A stretch of DNA of 64,000 bases, from positions 8,511,672 through 8,575,671 of the forward strand of contig NC_061782.1 in the NCBI RefSeq assembly GCF_022458985.1, in the 5' to 3' direction. The DNA comes from Mugil cephalus (taxonomy: Eukaryota; Chordata; Actinopteri; Mugiliformes; Mugilidae). Positions 133-64,000 of this stretch are shown piece after piece (position 1 is the first letter of the stretch; every line of letters begins with the position of its first letter). The position numbers were made by a program, and so were the translations under genes. The notes under the pieces are model-generated. The model was given only the letters and a program-made list of their open reading frames with translations, did no database searches and was not told the origin of the DNA.

Positions 133-23335
<23,203 letters not shown>

Positions 23336-23880: not shown

Positions 23881-26153
23881 TCTTAGTTTGAGTTTCTTCC
23901 TCTTGCAGCGCAGCAGACTCTAACCTTTTATTGTCTCATAGCCCTGATACATGAAATATGAGAATTGCCACGAAGTAACCAAGACCCACACGCAGACAGT
24001 GTTTTTCTATCGCATGCTGTCTTGTAGTTTGCACCTTACTTGGTTCAAAGGTTTCTGCTGCCCTCTGCAGGAAACTTCTTCTCCACTGCGTCTACTGTCT
24101 AAGAAAATGAGAGTTTACATTTAAAGAGAAGCTTTATTTAAGAAAACTCTAGTTAACTGCTTTTATTCCTTTACTGTCCAGTATTATCTGCAGTAATCAA
24201 CAACTTGAACTTGTCATAAATCAAATTACTGCACAAAGTTCTCTGCAAATGAATCTTTCTGAGGTTAATTAATGTCCTGCACTATGTACCATAGTTGCCT
24301 GTTTGTTTCAGAATCGTCATATTTAACATGACAAAGCAACTGTGTTCAAATAATCTAATCATCTGTACCATGTTAAATTGGATCCAGAGCATTTCTAAGG
24401 CCAACTTTAGGACAATCTGAGCATGTTCCTATTTTGCAAAGGAGTAATCAGTCACATGCTGTAGTATTAAACGTCCATGGACATATTTAAAAAAAGAAAA
24501 AAAAAGGGCTCCTCAATAAAATGGCTAAAAGTGCAACACGTGTCCGGTCTAGTGGTGTTTTCGTTTTGCTGCGCTGGACGTTCAATGTGCAGGGAAAGGC
24601 AATGAATTTTGTATTTTTATAAAATCCAAGAAGAAGAATTTTAACCATATATAACATGAGTTCTACTCTGATGCTGTACTTCTCTTTCCCAAATCTTTGG
24701 GTCTTTGGTTTCTCTGGGTAGAGGGGAGGGGCCTCTGTGGATCAGATTTGTTCCAGTGCATCCCACAGATACTTGATGAGTTTGGGATCTAGTGAATTTG
24801 GAGGCCAGGTCAACACCTCGTGCTGAGGAACATCCACATGAATCCCAGGTCCAAAAGTTTAACAGCAAAACATTGAATCATTGTCACCTGATGGTCAATG
24901 ATTTACTTCTCCTCTCAGTGGTTTTAACGTTGTGGCTGATCAGTGTATGTCCCAGATTCTGAGAAAAGGGGAAGTAGGACCTTTCTAATAGATGTTTTGT
25001 ATAATTATCCTCCAATCTCTGACATGCAAAACTCTTTCAGTTGCAAGTTGTTGTTTTTTTTTAGGATTTTCACTCGTGCACTGCTTGTTTCACTTCCTTC
25101 CACAACATATAATTAAAATCAGGTCTTACTCTTGGCCCGTCCCATAGAACTACATTACTTCTCTCTGAGACATTTCTGGACCTGCCAGTGTGAGTCTCAG
25201 ATCATTATCCAGCCGAAGTGTCCATTTATTATTCAGCTTTCAGTTTTATATTGTCTTCAAGTTCCCTGATGAATCAATGACTGCCAGCTGCCCTCTCCCT
25301 GAGGCAGTGAACCAAAACCAAACCAAATCATTTACCACTATGCATCACATATGTTTCTTCTACTCTTCAACAAACAAGTCAATGATTTATCTTTCCAGGG
25401 CACATTGTTCCAAAACGCCTGTCCTTAATAAACTGTAGTGTTTTGTTGTGATGTCCTTTTTAGTAGTTGGTCTGTGGTCTTTTTCCATATTTCTTCTGCA
25501 TTTTTACATTTCTTGGGTGGCATTTACTGAGGTGGCCAGTTCTGCATAAATTAGCACCTTGACAGGTACATTGGCATCCACAGCCCTTCTTTCAAATCCA
25601 TAGATATGGTGTGTTCCTGATCTGTGGAGCTCTATGCCATATGTCATTTGTTGCTCAAGGTTTCTTCTCTTTAAAAAGGGTTTTTCCTTCCCACCGTCTT
25701 GTGACGATTTGCCTTGATAGTGGGGACTTCTTCTAATATTATGAATTTGGTGTGATATATGTTGGGGTGTTTTTCATTTTAAAATGAGACTGAAATGTAA
25801 ATTATACGTGTCATTTGCTTCTGTATACCATTTTTATCTGTAGAAACACTTTCAACGAGGATCGAGTTAAAGATCGAATTAAAAAAAAAAAACACCAAAC
25901 AAAAAAATGATTTAAATAAAAAGAGTTAATAGGTCAATGTATGTACAGAGAAGCCTGTTAAGACTAAACTAAATGGTAACAGGTCCATTGTGTAGGTTTT
26001 AGTGACATCTAGTGGTGAAGTTGGATAGCAACCCCTTCCTTTTGTACCTGATAAGAAAAACCTAAGGTGTCTTTAAAAAAAAAAATTAAAAGATAACATC
26101 AAGTATTAGAGCGATATTAAAAATGAATTGTATTTTTTACATGTTATAATATT
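23881..26153. other. Spacer between egln1 and gpr137b (convergent 3' ends), repeats only
   Basis: The two genes converge here. I see no coding exon. It contains a decayed transposon copy (24640-24955) and a scrap with GGTTTCTTCTCTTTAAAAAG near 25660, typical of fish retroelement tails. A short GTGACATCTAGTGGTGAAG motif near 26000, also common in fish repeats, lies in it as well. The remainder is unremarkable. Confidence 0.7.
24640..24955 (-). mobile_element. Non-autonomous Tc1-like fragment, copy 2
   Basis: On the minus strand it begins with TACACTGATCAGCCACAACG, runs through TTTTGGACCTGGGATTCATG and contains GTTGACCTGGCCTCCAAATT, which reads L-T-W-P-P-N, the block preceding the third catalytic residue in Tc1/IS630 transposases. 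It is inverted relative to copy 1, so the pair brackets egln1 exons 3-5. Confidence 0.6.
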
Positions 26154-26504
26154 TTTAATATGAAATAATCATCTCTTCTATATAAACAAATCTGTATGAA
26201 AAAGGACACAGTACGTAAAATAGTAATACAGTACATATTACAAAGGTCAGGAAATATATTAAGCAGTATTCAGTACAAGCTATACATTGAAAAAACGTTT
26301 AAGAGAAGATCAAACTTTGTACAAGGAGAGTGCAAAATTAATGACCCATCAATGGGCCTTCATATACTGGCTGAGAGGAAAGTTAGGTCCTCTTCTCTAG
26401 ACGTATTACTAAGTGAATGATGAGGGCGACTTTAATGCCATGTGCAAAAATATACAGATAAAAAAACAATCCCACAGGTCAGTAGGAGTCAGTATGGACT
26501 CTGG
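26154..26504 (-). other. gpr137b: gpr137b 3' untranslated region (putative)
   Basis: Downstream of the TGA stop (26505-26507) on the minus strand. The reverse complement of 26154-26159 is ATTAAA, a possible poly(A) signal. No AATAAA is visible nearer the stop. Confidence 0.35.
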
Positions 26505-29500
26505 TCAGTAATGGCTGAGCTCTTCGGGAGGAGAAGGGAGGTTGTAACTGTCGTCCCCTCCGATGTAGGCGCCAATGCCGCTGCTTTGGCTCCCCCACTC
26601 GTAACTGTCAGCGGCCAGACTGAAGAGTCAGGAAACACAACCGTTAGACCTCTCTCTTCCTGTTCTGTGTGCAAAACCTTTCCCAGGATTAGGTTATGTG
26701 TTTTTGATTTTTACCTGGCTTGGATGTTCTGTGGCATGACGCTCCACGCGAGATCATCGTCACTGTCGTAGCGTCGTGGGTTGTCAAAGAAATAAGCCCT
26801 AGAGGAGAAGACGTGACCAGGAAGCCCAGAGCCGCTCTGCAGGACAGAAAATACCGGTAAACGTACGATACAATGGTGAATGTTAATGGTCATTTTGATT
26901 TAAGTTTAACAGAATATGACAAGAAAAATAAAGTAAAAACCTGCATCTTGCAACTCTTAATAAAAATGACCCCCAGGGTTTGAAACCACTGTCTTAGGGT
27001 AATTAGCAACTCACCCTGTCTAGGTTAGGCTGTCGCACCCTGAAGAAGAAAACTACTAAAGAGGTGGGGAGCAGCTCCCACACGAATAAAATCACCCCGA
27101 ACACGATGTAGCCCATGTCGCCCAGAGTCGACTGTAAATCTGCCTGTAAAATAAAACAAAACAAAGAAAAAAACGTATCACTACACACGATTTCGACATC
27201 TCCTTTGCCAGGTGAGAAACTATCACAATGGCAAAAGAGTCACACAAATAGTATTCACATTTGAAAATATATTTCTGCCTTAATAAACCATAGCTCTCAG
27301 TAAACATTAGCACATAAGCTTTTAAAATTTCTTAAGTCAAGCATAAACTGGGTGGGGAGATCACCTTACACCTGATCAACTGGTTGGGGGAGTCCAACAC
27401 AAAAACAAGTCTGTCATATAAATGAGAAGAAGAAAACTACTAAGAGGTGGGGAGCTGGGGACATCTTGGCAATCTTGTAAAGACATGGTGAAAGCTTAGG
27501 AAATGTATTTCTTGCATATGAGTTACAGTAAGTAAAGCCACAGTCTGATAGTTTAGCTTGTAACTGCCTTTTTGCAATATGTCAAGATATAACATGTCAA
27601 AGGCTGACCTTCAGAGGGGTTGGTATGTAGATCATTTAGACAGTTCCTTCATGTTGATGCTAGGCTAAGTTAGCGGTGCGGGTGGCTCCGACTTCATATT
27701 TAACATCAAGTGAATCATTTTCCCCTCATCCATCTCGACTCACCTGGTCCGAAACGTTGTACCAGTCGTAGTCAAAGGAGTTAATACTCTTGTTCGAGAG
27801 TCCCAGGACGACCAGATTGTAGCAGGCCCTGGATGCGTACAGGAGGATGACGATGGCCCCTATGACTGTCACCTGGCACACAGACGTCCCCTGAAAATTG
27901 CAAATCAGCCGCAAGTTCACATTCAGGCTGAAAGGAGACGTAATCTGGTGAAAACATCTGTGAAATCATACTAAAAAAACAAAAAAAACAAACAAAAAAA
28001 AACAACTAAAAGGGGCGGAAACACTGTATGATTAAGGAAATTACATAAGAGGCCATTCTGTCTGTTTACAGGCAGATAACATTCATAAAGGATGGTGTCT
28101 TAACTGAACTGTATTCTAAGCCAATAAGTCATGCACAAGAAGTTGCATAATGGTGGTTGGGAACAACGACTACAAGGCATGAAGTAGTGGGTCGTCGCAC
28201 ATGGATGCACAATATTTTTCATGCAAATGACCCTTAAACAAAGATGCGTCTCACCTTGGACTCCAGGTAAATGTTGGCCAGGGACATCTTGGCGATCTTG
28301 TACAGACACAGCGAAAGCGAGACGGCGCACAGGACGAACAGGGTGTCGTTGATCGCCACCCTCACCAGCACGATGGTGTGGGCTTCTGCGAAGGACATCC
28401 TCACCAGCAGGGCACATACCAAATTCACAACTAAAAACACCAGGCTGATGAACAGGAAGAGGAGGTACAGCGGCAGCCTGTGGGTCAGGAAATGAAAACG
28501 CAATATTCAACATAAAAAAACTTTCCATCAAATGGAAATGAAAATCTTCGGCCTGCTACAGCTCTGCTCTTACCTGTACCTCAGGAGTTCTGGTGCATAT
28601 TTCGACTTTGCCTTGAAAACCACCTGTGAAAAGAAAACAGGTGCAAATGCATTTATCGTGCAATGTGTTGTGCTGTTTTGATCAAATAGTTGCCACTTCT
28701 GCATTCTACTAATACGTAAGACACTCTCATGAAACAGGAACCTTCTTTTTTAAAAACAGCTCAGCTTGGGATCGTAGGTATGGTACGTGGGGCTTTGGGC
28801 GTCACTGTCAATATGCAACTGTGATTCACATCAGCGCAAGAGGATTATGCTAAAAATAAGCTGTAGAGGCAGCGGCCAGAGAAGCTATTATTTGATATGC
28901 GGATTATGTAAGCAGTCGAAGAAATGATCCACTGCATCACAGTCTGTGGCAGGTCTGAATGAGAGTCTGCAACAAGTGATACCTACTGGATTTTTAGACT
29001 TCAAGTGCGTACGTGTCCTGAACGTAACACCAGACTGTGTTTTTACAACATTTCAAGCAACTGTTACCAAAAACGAAACCAAATCTGGTTTGATTTTACA
29101 TCTTTTTTTTTGACGTGGGAGAGTGGGGAAACGGTTCGTTGTTCCATTCGTCAGTTTGGTGATTGATGAGTGATTTCAGTTAAGACATTTGAGGTCATTT
29201 CAACTTGTGGTATGAGAACTTGAGAAAGACTCCTTACTTTTTCACATTTTATAGACCAAACCGTGGAGGCCCAAATCTGCCAATGTAAACCAAAAGAATA
29301 TCCTGTACAATACCTAAAAAACATCAACTTCCTCAAACTAATGAAAGAAAAGAAAAAAAAAAAACATGGTGATATTTGCATGGGCCTGTATTTCCTCATT
29401 TCCACCAAAGAACCAGATGCAAGTGAATGAGATGAAGCTCTGCAAACCCAAATATACACGACGCCTCAAGACACCTTGACACGTGCTTTCACGTGTTGTG

Positions 29501-30641
29501 ACATTTTCCCGGTTTTAGAAAGAATCACAATGCACTAAACTAACCATAGAAAGCCCGTAAAACGCCGTGAAAGTTCGAGTTCCGGCTGAGATGAAATTAG
29601 ACAGGTGAAGCCGAAGCGACATCCTTCACTGACCAACCGCGACTAACATCTGGCTAATAGCTCAGCATCACGCTGATGCACCTGAAAGGTTGGTGGACTT
29701 ACAGACAGCGAAAGTGAGTGAGAATTGAGATCGACCTGCACGTCAGTCGTGGTTCAAACTAAAGCCTAAAAATAACTCGATGACTTCAAGGATTTGCTTT
29801 GGCGGAAGTAGGCTCCCGTATCAAACTGAATAAAAACAAATCAATCAGAAGTATTTTTTTTAAAAAAACAATCAAAATTGAATATAAGCTATATAATAAG
29901 CGGTTTTACATTTTGTCCTATTGTTGCACGGTGCCAAAACCTGTTCAGCTCCTAGCTCGAGTGAGGACAAAAACACCTTCCAGGCACGACGTGAAAACAC
30001 TTGACTTGGAATAAGAGTTTATGCCCTGGTGCGTAATTACGTTTCAGAGATGGAAAAAAAAAGAAAAGAAAAGAAAAAGTAGGGGATTGAATGCTGGATC
30101 ACAACTGGCCAGCAGACATGTTGTCATGTCCCAAACTCCTGCACATACGCACTTAAACCAGTGCCAGGCTTTAAAGCAATACCGCTCTCACATGACGAGG
30201 AAGCGGGCGCGGAGAAGTGACCGTGTTGACAGAACTGAACGCCTGACTCACCTGTGCAAAGTAAAGGTTCATGAGGCTTAGTGTGAAGAACTGCAGGCAC
30301 ACGGGAAAGCAGTACAGCAGCCAGAATGGAAAGGGCCCCAGAGTGTTGGCCGTGACGAAGTTCTTGAAGTAGAAGGAGAAGAGCACGGTGCGCAGGGCCG
30401 ACCACAGCAGGCACAGAAACAGGAACGCGGTCTGGTAGCTGAAGCGCTTGTGCCGGTAGCGCAGCACCAGCCAGAGCTGGACGTAGACGAAGATGAAGAG
30501 GAGGGAGTAGAAGACGGTGTAGACCACCGTCAGGCCCAGGGTGACGTACGGAGGAACGGCAGGGCTCAAGGTAGGCAGAGGAATGGTATCGTCCGTGAGA
30601 GAGGGCTCCTGATCCTCCTCTACCACCACCACGGCCTCCAT
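26505..30641 (-). CDS. gpr137b: GPR137B-type seven-transmembrane lysosomal protein, seven coding exons
   Basis: Coding exons in transcript order, all on the minus strand: 30641-30252, 28623-28574, 28477-28255, 27890-27744, 27143-27015, 26836-26715, 26619-26505. They join in phase to 391 residues (human GPR137B 399). The family are orphan seven-helix proteins of the lysosome membrane; GPR137B is reported to aid Rag GTPase/mTORC1 signalling and osteoclast function. Seen: an acidic N-terminus, TM1 around 34-58 ending in [12 protein letters not shown]2-TM3 at 70-130 ([17 protein letters not shown]), TM4-TM5 at 148-207 with [15 protein letters not shown]6 at 226-245, TM7 at 280-306 ([17 protein letters not shown]), and the hallmark tail [20 protein letters not shown] at 325-344. 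The N-terminal ATG follows a GC-rich leader. Gene lies head to head with nid1 and tail to tail with egln1. The GPR137B assignment over GPR137/137C rests on overall resemblance and synteny with NID1. Confidence 0.95.
27426..27494 (-). pseudogene. Chimeric fragment of gpr137b exon 3 fused to exon 5, inside intron 4
   Basis: Plus-strand 27426-27454 repeats about 30 bases of exon 5 (27043-27072; the part encoding PTSLVVFFF) with one deleted base. It is followed directly by 27456-27494, which repeats about 38 bases of exon 3 (28281-28318; encoding [11 protein letters not shown]) with five mismatches. Order and orientation match the parent gene, but exon 4, both introns and the rest of exons 3 and 5 are missing between them. 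The piece is far too short to encode anything and no splice sites frame it. Confidence 0.8.
28624..30251 (-). other. gpr137b intron 1, nothing recognised
   Basis: About 1.6 kb, donor GTGAGT at 30251, acceptor CACAG before 28623. It contains A-rich tracts and unique sequence; I see no repeat family or exon. Confidence 0.75.
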
Positions 30642-31050
30642 GTCCCGCTCTCCCTGGCCGGGAGGGGAGGGCGGGAGGGGAGGGGATGTCAGCCGGTGTT
30701 CGCCGCCGGGTCTCTGGCTTCACAGAGCCAGCTTCTCGGCTGAGGAAAGGAAGAAGAAAAAAAAGTGAGAGCGAAAGCGCAGAAAATAAGGCGAGGGTGA
30801 AGCTGCGAATGGGTCTGTCAAGAGGAGCGAGGGAAGAAAACAAATCTAACTTCCTGCAGCAGAGACGGCCCGAGAAGGAGGCACATGATCAGGGATGAGA
30901 ATGGGCCGCTTGTCATTAGCTGCAACTAGAGGCTCCTCCGTGAGAGGACCAGCCTCCTCCAGCCTCCTCCTCCTCCTCCCCCGACGACGACGACGACGAG
31001 CAGCGGTTACGTGACGCTACGCATCAGCTGACGCACGTCGCTGTACCTTT
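30642..31050 (-). promoter_or_regulatory. gpr137b: gpr137b 5' leader and CpG-rich promoter region
   Basis: Sequence upstream of the gpr137b ATG is GC- and CpG-rich compared with its surroundings. It includes a CCTCC-repeat run and a (GAC)n tract around 30960-31002, and an E-box-like GTCACGTAAC on the minus strand near 31008-31017. This is the typical look of a housekeeping promoter. The transcription start and any 5' untranslated intron cannot be placed by eye. Confidence 0.6.
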
Positions 31051-31769: not shown

Positions 31770-32125
31770 CAGAGAAGTGTAGAGAATCAGAGAATGGAGA
31801 TGGGCCTTCTGAGGGTGTCCTGTGGTGTCTGGCAACGGAAGAGGTTAGTGGGGGCCTTTGTGTCCCATGGGTTGAGGGGAGAGGCCTCTGTGGATCATCC
31901 CACAAATACTTGATCGGTTTAGAAACTAGTGAATTTGGAGGCCAAGTCATTGCTGGGGTGGGAGTGTCTGGTCTTGTCTGGGTGGGTGGTACGTGTCCAA
32001 GTAACATCCACACGATTTCCAGGTCCAGATGTTTCCCAGCAGAACATTGAATCGTCACAAAATAGTCAGTGTTATTTATTTCTCCTGTCAGTGGGTTTAA
32101 TGATGAGGCTGATTAGTGTGTGCAT
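31770..32125 (-). mobile_element. Non-autonomous Tc1-like fragment, copy 3
   Basis: On the minus strand it shows TTCTGCTGGGAAACATCTGG then ACCTGG, TGACTTGGCCTCCAAATTC (T-W-P-P-N) and GAACACCATGG-like remains, in the same order as copies 2 and 4. The 5' end motif is degraded (AATCAGCCTCATCATTAAAC). No open frame. Confidence 0.55.
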
Positions 32126-33105
32126 ATGTTTTGACACACGGCCTCTTTTTAAGGTTATATTATAACAGAATTAGGTTAAATGCCTCTTTATAATTCTACC
32201 ACCAGCTGAGCTGAACATGAAGGGATACATTCAGCCTTGGCAAGAGACATATTTTTAAGCGACCAACAAATGGACAGATTGATGCAACAGAATCCATCAC
32301 ATCCTGAGTTTTAGTTTCTATTATGGTTCAAGGCCCAAAAATACTAAATCCTTCAGCTTCGTGATGTAACTCAGCCTTTTTTTGACTCTCTGCCTGGAAA
32401 ACGCCCACGGCTTCCTAACTTCACAGCTGTATTTTGCAGCTCCGATTTTTTTCCATTAAAATTTTAATGGTTCTGATTATATAATCAGGATTATTTTCTC
32501 AGACTTTGGAGAGCTAAAACCAAGAAAGGTTTTCATAAAATAAAGATTACAACTGGTGACATGTGCTGATCTTCAGAGATTCCCCTTTGATTTCAACATG
32601 GAGTATTTCAGGTCTTCTTTAAATCATAGATTTTTATTTATAACCCAAGAAGAAACTAAAACCTGCACACAAACCCCAGGGAAGTTCGTTCTGTTTGTTA
32701 GCTGAAGGGGTTTTGTTTCACAGGAATGGGGCATGTGAACATGAGAAAGGCCAAGGACAGAGGTCACTCCATCTCACCTTTGACTGTTGTGACACATTAA
32801 TCTTTTATCGCGCACAGGCACCACACAGGATGCTGTCGGCTACAGTATTTCCCTCCCTGGTATGAGACTGAAATTTGGATGTGACTCCTTTCATAGATAC
32901 AAGAGTATGTTTTCTCCTCCCAGATGCATAAGCATAAAAAATGCAGACATGTATTTATTTGTCTTGTCATGCAGACATAACAGAAATGTGTTAATCTGAT
33001 CACGGAGGATGGAGGATGTCGGTGTCTTGGACTGAATTAACACAAATGTTGAATATCATAACCTTCATGAAGCTAATGCTGGTGTACCTAATGAACTGGC
33101 AAGTG

Positions 33106-33124
33106 ATGATATACATATATATAT

Positions 33125-33171
<47 letters not shown>

Positions 33172-33244
33172 TATATATATACAACTCTGGGAATATACAG
33201 TATATATATATATATATATATATACTGTATATTCCCAGAGTTGT
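33106..33244. repeat. (AT)n tract ending in a 64 bp perfect palindrome
   Basis: Interrupted AT dinucleotides from 33106 to 33180 lead into 33181-33244, whose two 32-base halves are exact reverse complements: outer arm ACAACTCTGGGAATATACAG, inner AT run. It can extrude as a cruciform. The tyrosine/isoleucine ORFs across it are artefacts. Confidence 0.95.
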
Positions 33245-38300: not shown

Positions 38301-41300
38301 CCAAACCAACAACCTTGTGACTAGTGTAATTCGCTGTATCTCCTGATCCACAGCAGTTCAGTCTAAAAAATGGTTTAAGACATGACGTACTTAAATATAA
38401 ATTGTGTTTTCCTATCAGGGCTGGAGGATAGTAGTTGGCTGTTCCAGTGATGTTGTTCCTGTATTTCTTATTTTCCATGTTTTCAGTGTTTTCATACAAC
38501 CTCGGCTCGTGTGCAAACAATAGAAATAAGTGCTCCCAGTTTGCTGACTGCAAGGACTACCCCGGTGGATACTGCTGCCATTGCAGGCCTGGCTTCTATG
38601 GAAATGGGAAACAGTGTGTGGCAGAAGGTCTGAATTCAGTCTTCATCTTTAAAAAAAACATTTTAAAGAAAGTATCCACACACTAATGCAGTGGAACTAG
38701 CCTCAAAAAATGGCTATAATCCAGAAAGGATAGGTTCTGAAATCTGGCTCTGACACAGTGTCTGAAGCTCATATGGAGTCAATTGGGTAAATCGGTGAGT
38801 TCAAGTCTTTGTGACCAACATTGATGCATTTGTTCATTTGCAGGGAAGCCACAGAGGACAAATGGTAAGATCCACGGGAGAGTGTTTGTGGGAAACTCTC
38901 GTACTCCAGTGGAGTTCAGCAGCAATGACCTCCACTCGTACGTTGTGGTAAATGATGGCCGATCCTACGTCGCCATCAGTGACATCCCTGATTCTGTCGG
39001 GCCCTCGCTGCAGCCCCTGGCGGCTATCGGCGGTGTCATCGGGTGGTTGTTCGCTCTGGAGCAGCCCGGCTTCAAGAACGGCTTCAGCATTATTGGTGAG
39101 AGGGGAAAAAAATAAAACCTGCGTTAGCAATATCTAATAATCTCACATTCAGTAACTTCTCATGCGCTGTTCATTGGTGTTGGTTGGATTTGGAGATAAT
39201 TACATAATGTCAGTCTTCCATACAGCTGCAGCTTCACTCACTGTCCAGATGAATTCCCTTCACATTACTTCAGCTGTGACAGAAGGCAGGGAGCCAAAGT
39301 TCATCCGGGGCCGGGGTCTTAAAGTTAACGTCCTCTTCCCTGTCCTCTGAAGGGGGGGAGCTCACACGGCAGGCTGAGGTGACCTTTCTGCCTGGGAATG
39401 AGAAACTGACCATCAAGCAAGACCTCAAAGGCATTGACGAGCATGACCACCTCGCGTTAAGCACCACCCTGGAAGGCCAGGTCCCTGAGGTGCCCCCTGG
39501 CTCCACCGTCAAGATCAGTCCTTACTCTGAGATCTACCAATACAGCAACAACTGTAAGATACATCTTAAAATGTGCTTTCTGATTCTACAAATGCCTAAA
39601 AGAAGCCATGTCTCCAGTTGTTTATTACATGTATATATTTCCCTTCAGTGATCACCTCATCCTCTACTCGGGAATACTCGGTGACCTTGCCTGACGGATC
39701 CACTGAAACTAGGAAGTATCAGTGGCGTCAGACCATCTCCTTCCAGAGCTGCCAGCATGGCGATGCTTTGAGGGACATGAAGTCTACCGAGATGCTGAGC
39801 GTGGACCAAGTTATGGTCTTGTATGAAGCCAGACATCAACTCATCCGCTTCGCCATGACCAACAAGGTCGGAGACATAAACGGTGAGAACGTGGAGGTTA
39901 TTTAGTCTTGTCGCTCTCATGCGAGCTCGTTTCCTTCCTGCCTTCGCACCATATATTGTAACATCCTGGCAAAGAGATAATTTTAGGCTATTGTCGTTAT
40001 CGTTGAATGGTAAACACTGTCTGGATTTGCACATAAACAAGTTAATAGATTGTTGTAACATGGTCTTACACCTTTCCTTCTCAGGAGGACAGCCAGAGGA
40101 GAACCCATGTTACACCGGAAGACACGGCTGTGACACCAACGCTGTTTGCAGACCGGGACAAGGAAAGGAGTTCACCTGCCAGTGCGCTACTGGTTTCAAT
40201 GGTGATGGTCGCTCATGTTACGGTAAGAATGACAAATAACGTAGTACAAACGAGGACATTTGTTTCTATTGAATGAAGATTACGTTGCAGTATTTTTCTT
40301 TGTCTTTTCTTTTTTTTTTTTGCCTTCAAGTAAACTATTTACCATATCAGTTTTAGATCAATTATTAAAATAACTCCCACTTCCTAAAGCCTTCCTTCCT
40401 GGAGGGACATCACAGTGATGCCAATTAGCAGAGTCCCATGTGGTAAACAAAGTGTATACTCCAATTCCAGGTTAAGATATCTAGTGTGGCCTTCATTCCC
40501 AGGGTCGTATGCGTTCGAGACGAAACAGGAAAAGCCCTCACAGTAGGAGAAGGAAGGAAGCACTTCAGACAGATTCTATCTGTCAAGATATCTAATTAAG
40601 CCCTCTTCCTTGATCTTCCTCTGTCTGATAACGAAGAGCACTGATCTGACAAATCCAGTTTTAAGTACTTGGATCCAGTGTAGGGGATCATTAGCATACA
40701 AATAACAGGCTAATGTCTTTATCAGACATCGATGAGTGCAGAGAGAATCCTCAACTCTGCGGCCCCCACGCTATCTGCAACAATCAGCCCGGGACTTTCC
40801 GCTGCGAATGTGAAGATGGGTACCAATTCGGCAGTGATGGGCAGACGTGTGTTGGTAAGTGGTGTTTGTGTGCTGTCAAGTATAATCACATATTAGGGAT
40901 ATCTTACCTGCAGAGAGATTTAGACATAAACTGTAATAAAATGTATTAAAAAATAAGACCAGGGTTAGCAAGACAAACAGAAGTTTACACATTAATTATA
41001 AGGGCACACATATGACTTTGAACACTGAACCAATTGCATTACAGTGTGTGTGTGTCCTACATCAAATAATACTCACACTACATCATGCATGTCTAGTAAA
41101 GATGGTGTGATCGGTGTGATTGTCACCAGTTGTCAACCGCTACCTATTAACGCAGTAGTTCCACAATTTTGAAAACTTTAGCATTGATCACGTTACCCAT
41201 GATGGTAAACATGAACTAGCCAGCAGCTGATTAGCTTACCTTAACATGTCTTGTCTGAATCATCTCATCAATTCATTTTATTTTAATTGTTCTCTAATCT

Positions 41301-50408: not shown

Positions 50409-52108
50409 ATGGCCAGTCCTCAGCAGACTGATCTGACATATGCGTGGGAAAAGTACATGGACTGTAGACTGCAGGGAGCCGATCTGCAGGTATGGAGCAT
50501 CTGGAGGGATCAGCTCAGGGATATTTATCCATGTGCTGATGATAGTGATACTAATATAGAACTACATTAGCGCTGACCTGAAAGAAAACAAATAAACTTT
50601 GAGATGTGTTTTGAATATAGGCTGTAGGTCACAAGTAAAAAATGAATGACTCCGAATATAACAGTCCTGCACTAAATCCTCCTTCATGATTGTTATAATG
50701 TTCAGTTTATGCTGATTTGCTCTGTGCAATCATTTTGGAGGATGCAGTGTGTCATCATTCCAACCTTTTTAGGATCTACCCAAAGTAAATGAACGCTGTT
50801 CATGAACATTTCGGAGCGTATGCATTGTCTTGGTCTCCTTTAAAAGCCAAGACTCAGAAATGACTGTACGTGGTATTGCTCTTGAATAATTAAAATTGGC
50901 ACACAGTTAAACAAAGTAGTTGTTGGGTTCGCCTGATTTTTTTTGTTTTTGTTTTAAAAAAATAAATAACTTATTGGTTGAATCCTATAATGGGTTTGAT
51001 CAATGAATTCATAAGGACAGTAGCCTTCCAACAACATATTGCATGCAGCATTTGCTTAAATACAACTCGTATAGAGCTCTGATTGGTTCAAAAAGCTACT
51101 GCTGTCTCATATATGACCCAGAGGAATGTGAAAGGGTTAAACTGAATTAAACTCCAAAGTGTTTCCGTTAATTAATCTAGCCACTGACTAAAAATGGGCT
51201 TGTCAAAGTAACAACACAATACAATTCAATACTACAGCGAACCACAGCCTCGAAAGTGAAAACACAATTGAATCAACAGCTCACTCAGTTATTTCAAAGA
51301 AACACTGAATGCTATTAGCTTCATGATGATCAGATTCAGTGCAGGACTGTTAAAATGCGTTAAATTTCACTGGTGTACCTAATGAAATGGCAAGTGAGTG
51401 GAAAGGACACTGGTTGTTAAAAATTAATAAATTCAATATTCACGAATTGCAGTTAAATACGTATCTAGTTTCTGATGTGCTTATTGTGATGAAGACAGAG
51501 GATTTGTTTACATCTTTTCGTAGCTGTGAAACTGGTTCCTCCAGTATTTGATTTTAATCCTAGCTCAGTATAATTCTTAATCTTCGCTGCATCATCAGCT
51601 GAGGGATGCCGGGCCTGGTTGCTCGATAAAATGGTAAATGGTGCTATCTAACAATAGAAAACATTGTTCAGAGACATTCTTCCCGCAAATTACTCTAAGG
51701 GTGTTGTCCGAGCTGTCCTTAGGTCGCAGCCAACGGCCAGGAAGAGCCTTTTCCAAAATGCTCTGATATGATGTACACTGATTAATATAGTCTGTAATTG
51801 TGTAACAGGGGTAACCACGGTGTTGAGAATCATTCGATCAATGTCTTTCTGTCCGTGTGGGAGAACTTAGCTGCACGTGCATTTGCTTGGCCAGCAATGA
51901 GTCACCGGACAGAGGTGGGCGCAGGTGTAAAGCATAGATTTTCCATTAGCGTTGCAAGTGTGCTTTCGCGTCTGAGTTTGCAGCGGTGGTTGTGAAATCT
52001 CAGTCAGACCTCTCTGCAGCTCTTTTCATCCCCCTCCTTCTGTCAGAGCAGCAGCCAGATCACGGGACTTGGATTAGAATCAGACTGCAGGCCTAAGAGC
52101 GATCTGCC

Positions 52109-58100: not shown

Positions 58101-60261
58101 TTTAAAAATAACCCTCTCGATTCGTGAATTGAAACGGGAAAATAACTTGAAAAGAAAATTTGACAACAAAACTTGCTTTGACGGTTATGACAGGAAGGAA
58201 GTTGACTCATCATCTAATCCCACAAAAGAGACTAACAGCGAAATCTGACGTTTTACAAAACTGAAGACACCTGAGTAGCCGGCATTATGAAAGTTTCTCC
58301 TCTTGGAGCTTGGGATAATCTGTTAACAACTACTGTTACAGTATGACAATATATTCATGTCTTTAAAGGGATGTTTTACGTCACATGTCTTGTGAATTCT
58401 TTGTGTTTTACTGTGTGCACTGTGGTGAAAACTGTCACTGCAGCTAAATGATTTGCTGTGCTGACGCTGTAACAAAACCTTCTATTTTATAAAGATACCC
58501 TCATGTGCATGATTTGCCTTTTATCTGAGAAATAGCTAATAAATGCACCAACCAGGCGTAACATTATGACCACCGTCAGGAGACGTAAATAACGTTTACC
58601 ATCTTATGACAATGAAATATTCTGCTGGGAAACTTTTGGACCTGACATTCATGTGGTTATTTAGACATGTTCTACCCACCGAGATCAAACCAGAGCATGG
58701 CAGCAGCCATCCCCAGCAGGATGTGGTCTGACACAGACGCACGCACAAAAATGGTTGAAGAACACGATAAGGGGTTGACCTGGCCTCCAATTTCACTAGA
58801 TCCTCATCAAATATCTGTGAGAAGATCCATAACGGCCCCAACCCTCAACACATAAGACCCAAAGCCCCCCCCCCCCCACTGACAACATCCTGTTTCCAGG
58901 CACCACAGAGAAACCTACACAACATTAGGAAGGTGGTCAGAATGTATTGTAATCTTTGATGATTTCTACTAAAGAAAATCTGAACTCCCTCCTTGGCAGC
59001 AAGAAACAACTTGTGTTTACATTCTGCTTTTTTCAGCCAACTTCCTAGTTTGTGATCTTGTGGCCTACTGTATGTTGATTGCATTTCCTTCCTCAAAAAC
59101 TCTTTGTAAAGCCATTGTTTTGAACACGTCAAAACTTGCACCTCTCCCTCTTCCGCTCACTATCTGCAGTTCATCAGTAAAATACCAGCAAGCGTTTGTG
59201 AAGAGTGCGCGTCGTGTCGCTCGTGCACTTTTACACTCACGTGACACATTAACGGACGAAAGCTGCACTTGCATGTACACGTTCTGTATGTCCCGTCGGC
59301 GCCATCGCGGGTCAGACCGCGTGTGGCGTTTTATTCTTCAGCTGCGTGACCCAGACACTCGGGGCAGACGCATCAGTCAGGGATCAGCGTTGCCTGAATG
59401 AATCCAGTCGGTAGCGGTGTCAGATTAGCAGATGAGAAAAGCGAGCTCCGGTGTGGAGTAAGGGACAATGGTACACTGGCTTAGTGTCACACACGTCTGC
59501 CGGGAAGGTATTAACACACTACCCTGGAGCCAGTAATGCAGTTAAAAGCGGTCAGGTGGCTCGTCTCGCTGTTGAGAAAGTCCCAACTGCCTCGCCGGCT
59601 CTGGAGAGAGGTTCCCGCTCTGTGGTCAGGCTGCTACTGCTGCCTGGTTACGAGGCTGATTTCACCTTTATTTGATGTTTGTTTGCAGAGACTGTGGCAT
59701 TATCGTGTGCTTAAAACTTTCACTGCTGATTGTGATTTTAAATAGTTTAGAACTGAGCTGTGCAGCCCCCCTGTTCAAAATAACGAGGCTTTGCTTTGAT
59801 CGTGACTTAAGGGGGTTTGGCGAAAAATAGAAAACATAGTAAAGAAAAAAGACTAGTAAAATACCCTTCGAAGGAGTTTAAAGTGAATCCGTATAAATGG
59901 GTGCCCTTTGGTTAAAGAGAAGAAATAAAATATACCGACACTTGGCACAGCACCTGAAAAATCAATATGGGAGAAATAGTCTCAAATAACTTGCCTAACT
60001 GTCTATGTGTATGTCATTTAGAACAACTGTATAACCTACAATCCTTTACAGAAATGTTTGTGTCACGCATGCTTCATTTCAGTTCCTCTTCAGCGCGGTA
60101 GTGGTAATCTCCATTTGGGTCTTGTTTGCTGTTCTTGTTGCTCATGTGTGCGTCTCCGTCTCTTATCAGGTGAGCCTTCAGAGTCTGGAGAATTTTCTAT
60201 GTCTCTTCCACTATGTGCAGCACCAGCCCAGCCACAGCACCAAAGATGCACTGAAGTTCTG
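50409..60261 (+). CDS. Unrecognised membrane protein, N-terminal part (incomplete)
   Basis: I do not recognise this gene. Two coding exons fit together in phase: 50409-50489 (27 residues, MASPQQTDLTYAWEKYMDCR...) and 60083-60261 (about 60 residues). The first ATG has G at -3 and +4. The second exon begins FLFSAVVVISIWVLFAVLVA, a clear single membrane segment (residues 28-52), followed by QSLENFLCLFHYVQHQPSHS. The exon ends in phase 2 before GTAAGC, so the gene continues past the window. With no N-terminal signal before the segment, a signal-anchor protein is likely (inference). Inside the second exon, TATCAG|GTGAGC would also make a good donor, so an alternative shorter exon is possible. In human the gene downstream of NID1 is LYST, but the translation does not resemble what I recall of LYST. 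Confidence 0.6.
50755..51140 (+). mobile_element. piggyBac-type miniature element, copy 1
   Basis: About 380 bp clearly related to 62034-62426. Shared blocks include ACCCAAAGTAAAT, GCTGTTCATGAACATTT, GGTCTTGGTCTC-like words, AAAGCCAAGACT, GAGCTCTGATTGGTTCAAAA and CATATATGACCCAGAG. The right end is AAAGGGTTAA; the left end is degraded. Confidence 0.65.
52110..52143. repeat. (CA)n microsatellite
   Basis: A run of about fifteen CA units in the intron of the unrecognised gene. Confidence 0.9.
53530..53605. repeat. AT/GATATA simple repeat
   Basis: Alternating ATATAT and AGATATAG words. The tyrosine/isoleucine ORFs here are artefacts of this repeat. Confidence 0.85.
58557..58960 (+). mobile_element. 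Non-autonomous Tc1-like fragment, copy 4
   Basis: Begins GTAACATTATGACCACC, the left end of this family, then TTCTGCTGGGAAACTTTTGG and ACCTGACATTCATG, then TTGACCTGGCCTCCAATTTC (L-T-W-P-P) and CAGGCACCACAGAGAAACCT. The transposase 5' half is absent, suggesting an internally deleted copy. It is the most complete of the four at its left end. Confidence 0.65.
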
Positions 60262-63280: not shown

Positions 63281-64000
63281 TTTACTACGGTAACAATGTA
63301 CAAATTACGGTACTGTACAAATGACGATTTGTTGGTTTTAAAGTCACTGCATCTCGCTCTAAGCTGACTGTGTGTCTGAGCATTTACGGATAAAGATGAA
63401 GAAGTATAGGTTTTTTGATCGAAGGCTACTCTATACAGTCAGAGGCAACTAATGAAAACAAATGCTTCCTTACGTAAAAGGTTAGCTTCATGAGAGTTAT
63501 GATGTTCAACATGTCTGTTACATTAGAATGCATTCATTTTCACTAGTGTAGCTTATGAAGTGGCCTGTGAGTGTATAGTGTAGTTGTCTTGGATAATACA
63601 GTGGAGACACTAGGCTTGCTATAAATTACTATCTATTATCTATCACCCCTGACGTAGGAGGACTAAAGCATGGCAAGGGCACATTGTCTCTGCTTCACTG
63701 ACGCACAATAACTCATGTCTCCCTCGTCACATTGCTATTCAATAAAATGTGTATACACTGCCTATAAAGCAGCAGTGAACGGATGTGATGTTGTGCCAGA
63801 TTAAATAGGGCTGCGATCATACGCACTAAAAGCATGTCAAAGCTTTTATACGTGTATCTGGGCCTGATGGAGGGTGACCTGCGACCTAAATAAGCTGTTT
63901 CACCCGGACTAAAGCTGAATTATCATGGTGAGTGAGGACTTGAACTGAGATTATACAGCAGCACTAAATGCTAAGTAGTGCGGCACAGTTTTTCAGAAGG

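Follow-up and report, generated by a model that had tools for sequence, protein, structure and literature searches.

Short copies of exons 5 and 3 lie side by side in intron 4 of gpr137ba in Mugil cephalus

Results

The 64-kb window (the whole stretch of Mugil cephalus DNA that was analysed) contains a gpr137ba gene on its minus strand, modelled as seven coding exons that together encode a protein of 391 amino acids in an open frame. Among the matches listed, the top relatives of this protein are teleost G protein-coupled receptor 137Ba proteins, with that of Thunnus albacares sharing 91% identity. No Pfam family is recovered for the protein itself at E ≤0.01, though PF27607 is present on listed homologues, and no relative is found in the PDB at E ≤0.001. 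Some annotated fish gpr137ba proteins (P0010, P0017, and P0028) have 6 or 18 additional residues at the exon 4/5 junction, perhaps as a result of alternative acceptors or annotation errors; these residues are unrelated to the intronic sequence described below.

Within intron 4 lies a patch of 70 bases made up of two short copies of the gene's own exons, which stand in parental order and in the same orientation as the exons they match (Table 1).

Table 1. Positions in the window of the intronic patch, its donors, and the surrounding parts of gpr137ba
Feature	Position	Strand	Basis or remark
Exon 5 of gpr137ba	27015-27143	-	Gene model; donor stretch 27042-27072
Hairpin in exon 5	27067-27079		Perfect 6-bp stem, 1-base loop (GGGAGC-A-GCTCCC); donor breakpoint 27072|27073 at its centre
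Intron 4 of gpr137ba (recipient)	27144-27743	-	Gene model; 600 bases; ends GTGAG and TTTTACAG
Copy of part of exon 5	27426-27455	-	30/31 columns match 27042-27072 (CDS 882-912); one base deleted
TG between the copies	27456-27457		Two bases; neither donor matched in simple alignment
Copy of part of exon 3	27458-27495	-	33/38 match 28281-28318 (CDS 600-637); five mismatches
Exon 4 of gpr137ba	27744-27890	-	Gene model; absent from the patch
Exon 3 of gpr137ba	28255-28477	-	Gene model; donor stretch 28281-28318

When intron 4 was used as a blastn query against the window, the two exon matches were the top results after the self match, the exon 5 copy aligning over 31 columns with 0 mismatches and 1 gap (E = 1.2e-7) and the exon 3 copy over 38 columns with 5 mismatches (E = 4e-7); the other rows had E values of 0.009 or worse and were mostly A-rich. 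By Smith-Waterman comparison with the gpr137ba coding sequence (CDS), the exon 5 copy scores 55 and the exon 3 copy 51, elsewhere in intron 4 the best sense piece reaches 19 and the best antisense piece 20, and the five remaining introns of the gene give at most 29. As controls, 5000 dinucleotide shuffles of intron 4, compared with the sense CDS only, gave a maximum of 36, and a set of 174 overlapping segments of 600 bases, drawn from the rest of the window and compared with the CDS on both strands, gave a maximum of 33. With none of the 5000 shuffles and none of the 174 segments coming near 55 or 51, chance similarity is ruled out for each of the two copies on its own score. The adjacent exon 5 and exon 3 copies that an earlier note on this DNA had described are thus confirmed, and they stand clear of the shuffled-intron comparison that it had named as the challenge to its claim. 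The further diverged exon pieces that it had suggested looking for in intron 4 did not emerge, the scores of 19 and 20 being within the shuffle range. That note had also argued that two exonic segments in the correct order cannot be chance; here the conclusion stands but the argument does not, as the case against chance is carried by the similarity scores, while order and orientation, which by our own estimate would agree by chance roughly 1 time in 4 to 1 time in 8, lend it a small added weight. A self-comparison of the window yielded 20 non-identical pairs at E 1e-3, in which the two patch pairs are among the lowest-scoring and the remaining 18 resemble dispersed repeats, local duplications, or palindromes. 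No tandem repeats were found at the patch, and a search of a phage collection gave no match.

The junctions of the patch were also inspected. The earlier note had placed the seam between the copies at a shared CCC/GGG, but no clean junction of this kind is seen, because TG intervenes and is unmatched in either donor. The two outer junctions likewise show no clear shared bases; the age of the patch may have erased junction microhomology. On the donor side, the exon 5 breakpoint falls at the centre of a perfect hairpin (Table 1), a position held by 8 of the 2201 boundaries placed across 26500-28700. As DNA, this hairpin has a folding energy of -5.5 kcal/mol (z = -2.95); among 200 shuffles, 3 match its stability. 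The other five of the six breakpoints have stems of just 1-2 bases, and neither the exon 3 donor region (z = 0.89) nor the insert (z = 0.13) folds better than its shuffles. Template switching at the exon 5 hairpin, a structure that was spotted post hoc, is plausible. A strand switch at this hairpin would yield exactly the TG, since GGGAGCTG is the reading of the complementary strand at that point; as the source of these two bases it is offered only as a suggestion, a chance fit being expected 1 time in 16.

No function is supported for the patch, and we infer that it has none. Antisense pairing with the exons, which the earlier note had raised, cannot occur: both copies run in the same direction as the exons, so the intron RNA repeats the exons instead of complementing them. 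Its other proposal, an effect on splicing, finds no support either. On a weight matrix, the best donor-like sites score 6.4 downstream of the patch and 6.9 upstream of it, as compared with 7.5-12.5 for the six real donors of the gene, and the AG sites up to the start of the patch are preceded by 5-9 pyrimidines of 15, a count taken for these sites only. The reading frame is open through both halves of the patch and meets a stop a few codons beyond it, and of the 1084 homologues found, the 120 that were listed contain none of five test peptides taken from this frame. Given the weak donor-like sites, the early stop, and the absence of these peptides, a cryptic exon is judged unlikely. No RNA family reaches its gathering score in the 64-kb window; within 26400-30800 five matches have E ≤1, all of them outside intron 4 and each short of the gathering score for its family.

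Discussion

We favour, at about even odds (a probability of roughly 0.5), the reading that the patch is an inert, old composite templated insertion, formed during break repair or template switching in what was probably a single event, with DNA as template and two donors in the same gene. In such an event, a break or stalled fork would have arisen in intron 4, and a polymerase would have copied ~31 bases from a stretch of exon 5 at a distance of 384 bp, left that exon at the centre of the short hairpin, and then copied ~38 bases from exon 3, at a distance of 823 bp, before the end was rejoined to the intron, with DNA serving as the template throughout. The patch would then have drifted as ordinary intron sequence. 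Its traceability to a template argues for this reading, with both donors intact in exons of the open 391-residue gene, as do the sharply bounded short copies in place of whole exons, the lack of more exon pieces in intron 4, the location of both donors less than 0.9 kb from the insertion site, and the hairpin at the exon 5 breakpoint. Against it stand the position of the donors on opposite sides of that site and the wholly exonic nature of both pieces, which random local DNA donors would produce with a chance of 5-8% (over three choices of region), along with the lack of clear microhomology at the outer junctions and the post hoc recognition of the hairpin. Among the three origins offered in the earlier note, template switching is therefore the one we prefer. 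The others were a local duplication with a 1.2 kb deletion, less favoured as it has left no remnants, and a cDNA scrap that later lost exon 4, which persists as a rival although no exon-exon junction is present; neither the 1.2 kb deletion nor the loss of exon 4 is necessary, because two separate templated copies produce an identical layout, though either may have occurred.

Templated insertions of this sort are an already known kind. Those mediated by Pol theta have reportedly been studied in C. elegans. In the study in question, composite Pol theta inserts are described as error-rich, with about 1 error in 30 bases, and 16 of 17 of them drew on one flank; the inserts as a whole are mostly under 25 bp (PMC5068794). 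The gpr137ba patch resembles these in being composite, in having errors, and in being copied from sequence near the presumed break, but Pol theta copies from a few bases off the junction and, in composite inserts, mostly from one flank, whereas here 31 + 38 bases derive from both sides and from hundreds of bases away (PMC5068794). Microhomology-mediated templated insertions (MMB-TI), which have been described in human cells as germline events combining as many as five templates, are similar in their small and nearby templates, sometimes several per insert, and in their occurrence as germline variants (PMC8421209). However, the software of that study searches for inverted copies whose templates lie no more than 100 bp away, in contrast to the direct copies and the more distant donors found here, and microhomology was present at 80% of the junctions analysed, with none being clear in the patch (PMC8421209). 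Class 2 templated sequence insertion polymorphisms, as outlined in PMC5110952, share the lack of a target-site duplication and poly(A) and commonly stem from transcribed sequences, but their source is distant in the genome and they are longer (73-414 bp for experimental inserts), while the patch is drawn from its own host gene. In short-range template switching, the polymerase likewise moves to a nearby template, and the switch loci have unusual secondary structure, though the work concerned compared great ape genomes and the patch is described from a single fish genome (PMC7954356). In transcript-templated break repair, the RNA of a transcribed gene can be used as a repair template, but the scar described is the deletion of a whole intron, whereas here an intron has gained exon sequence without an exon-exon junction (PMC12065846). 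At the level of the titles and abstract openings listed, at most 20 per search, the literature yielded no case of exon scraps in an intron of their own gene, although such a case may be in print.

The main rival to a DNA template is an RNA template, whereby a break in intron 4 was filled by copying a transcript of the gene, or its cDNA, with an enzyme that skipped 244 nt of mRNA in passing from exon 5 to exon 3; we regard this as possible, if doubtful. With donors that are exclusively exonic (the same 5-8% outcome for local DNA) and with transcript order and relative orientation preserved, a transcript template is favoured on those points. Copying from exon 5 to exon 3 would also follow the direction of reverse transcription, and both transcript-templated repair (PMC12065846) and RNA-derived patches (PMC5110952) are on record. 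However, the exon 3 piece stops 26 bases short of that exon's end and the exon 5 piece starts 71 bases into its exon, with no exon-exon junction being crossed, which denies proof of an RNA template but not the mechanism itself. The 244-nt jump is a further requirement, DNA templates are taken as commoner in our prior view, and inspection of the junctions by eye found neither poly(A) nor a target-site duplication; as for the marks of a retrocopy or LINE-mediated (class 1) insertion, the 70 bases have no directly flanking duplication, and neither of their ends carries an A or T tract. In a more specific form, the gene's own spliced transcript would have patched its own intron in the germline, with an RNA hairpin as the point at which the enzyme leapt from exon 5 to exon 3. 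We think this unlikely; if true, it would provide a natural case, in a vertebrate, of repair by a gene's own mRNA that adds exon sequence to an intron instead of deleting the intron.

Improbable, in our estimation, is a larger duplication spanning exon 3 to exon 5 that was placed in intron 4 and later deleted almost entirely, down to these two scraps. It would account for the parental order and orientation, but at least three deletions would be needed, and no other trace of exons 3, 4, or 5, or of further parts of the gene, is detected in intron 4 (next scores 19 and 20). The pieces are short and bounded inside exons, and the rest of the intron is at background, which argues against the decay of a whole duplicated region. 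Differences between the copies could instead point to two separate insertions, or to a different coding copy, for instance gpr137bb, as the source of the exon 3 piece: substitutions number 5/38 in the exon 3 copy and 0/30 in the exon 5 copy (Fisher p = 0.06), 4 of the 5 changes in the former lie at codon third positions (p = 0.045), and the homologues listed include second fish copies (P0020 and P0072 in Pungitius are examples). However, neither p value is better than marginal, both being post hoc, the pieces lie two bases apart, and the same local gene explains both best, leaving either course very unlikely. Given the third-position bias, part of the divergence may be later synonymous change in the parent exon, in which case the copy may be old. 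An assembly error is scarcely credible, since a misjoin normally gives identical sequence and these copies differ from their donors by five substitutions and an indel.

As a composite templated insertion, the patch would be a compact fossil of two-step copying within one gene, and one in which the choice of template is directly readable because the donors are still intact. If relatives were to show an empty site together with an early form bearing an exon-exon junction, RNA-templated repair in the fish germline would be documented. Otherwise, the patch would amount to a mutational scar of the ordinary sort and a warning against taking every exon-like piece in an intron for an exon.

The window holds several neighbouring features of other kinds. 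A Tc1/mariner-type transposon at 18650-20260 is possibly young; its flanking inverted repeats of 206-207 bases are 98% alike, and its minus-strand open frame of 356 aa (18868-19938) matches Sleeping Beauty HTH, Tc3_2, and DDE_3. A diverged dispersed repeat family is present at 24699-24949, 31807-32122, 58546-58908, and 21456-21538, in both orientations and with members 72-84% alike. Short shared segments at 33038-33106, 51350-51400, and 63482-63573, which are 80-96% alike and also in both orientations, perhaps form one repeat family. Local direct duplications (17155-17262/17669-17769 and 17360-17590/17759-17997) have 76-78% identity at a spacing of ~400-500 bases, and a perfect palindrome of 64 bases that includes an alternating TA stretch occupies 33181-33244. 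On the plus strand, a 254-aa open frame at 103-864 encodes a MYND zinc finger, and a G2F-domain open frame with an adjoining EGF-domain frame lies at 39280-40236, ~9 kb from gpr137ba, an arrangement that we take to be that of a nidogen gene.
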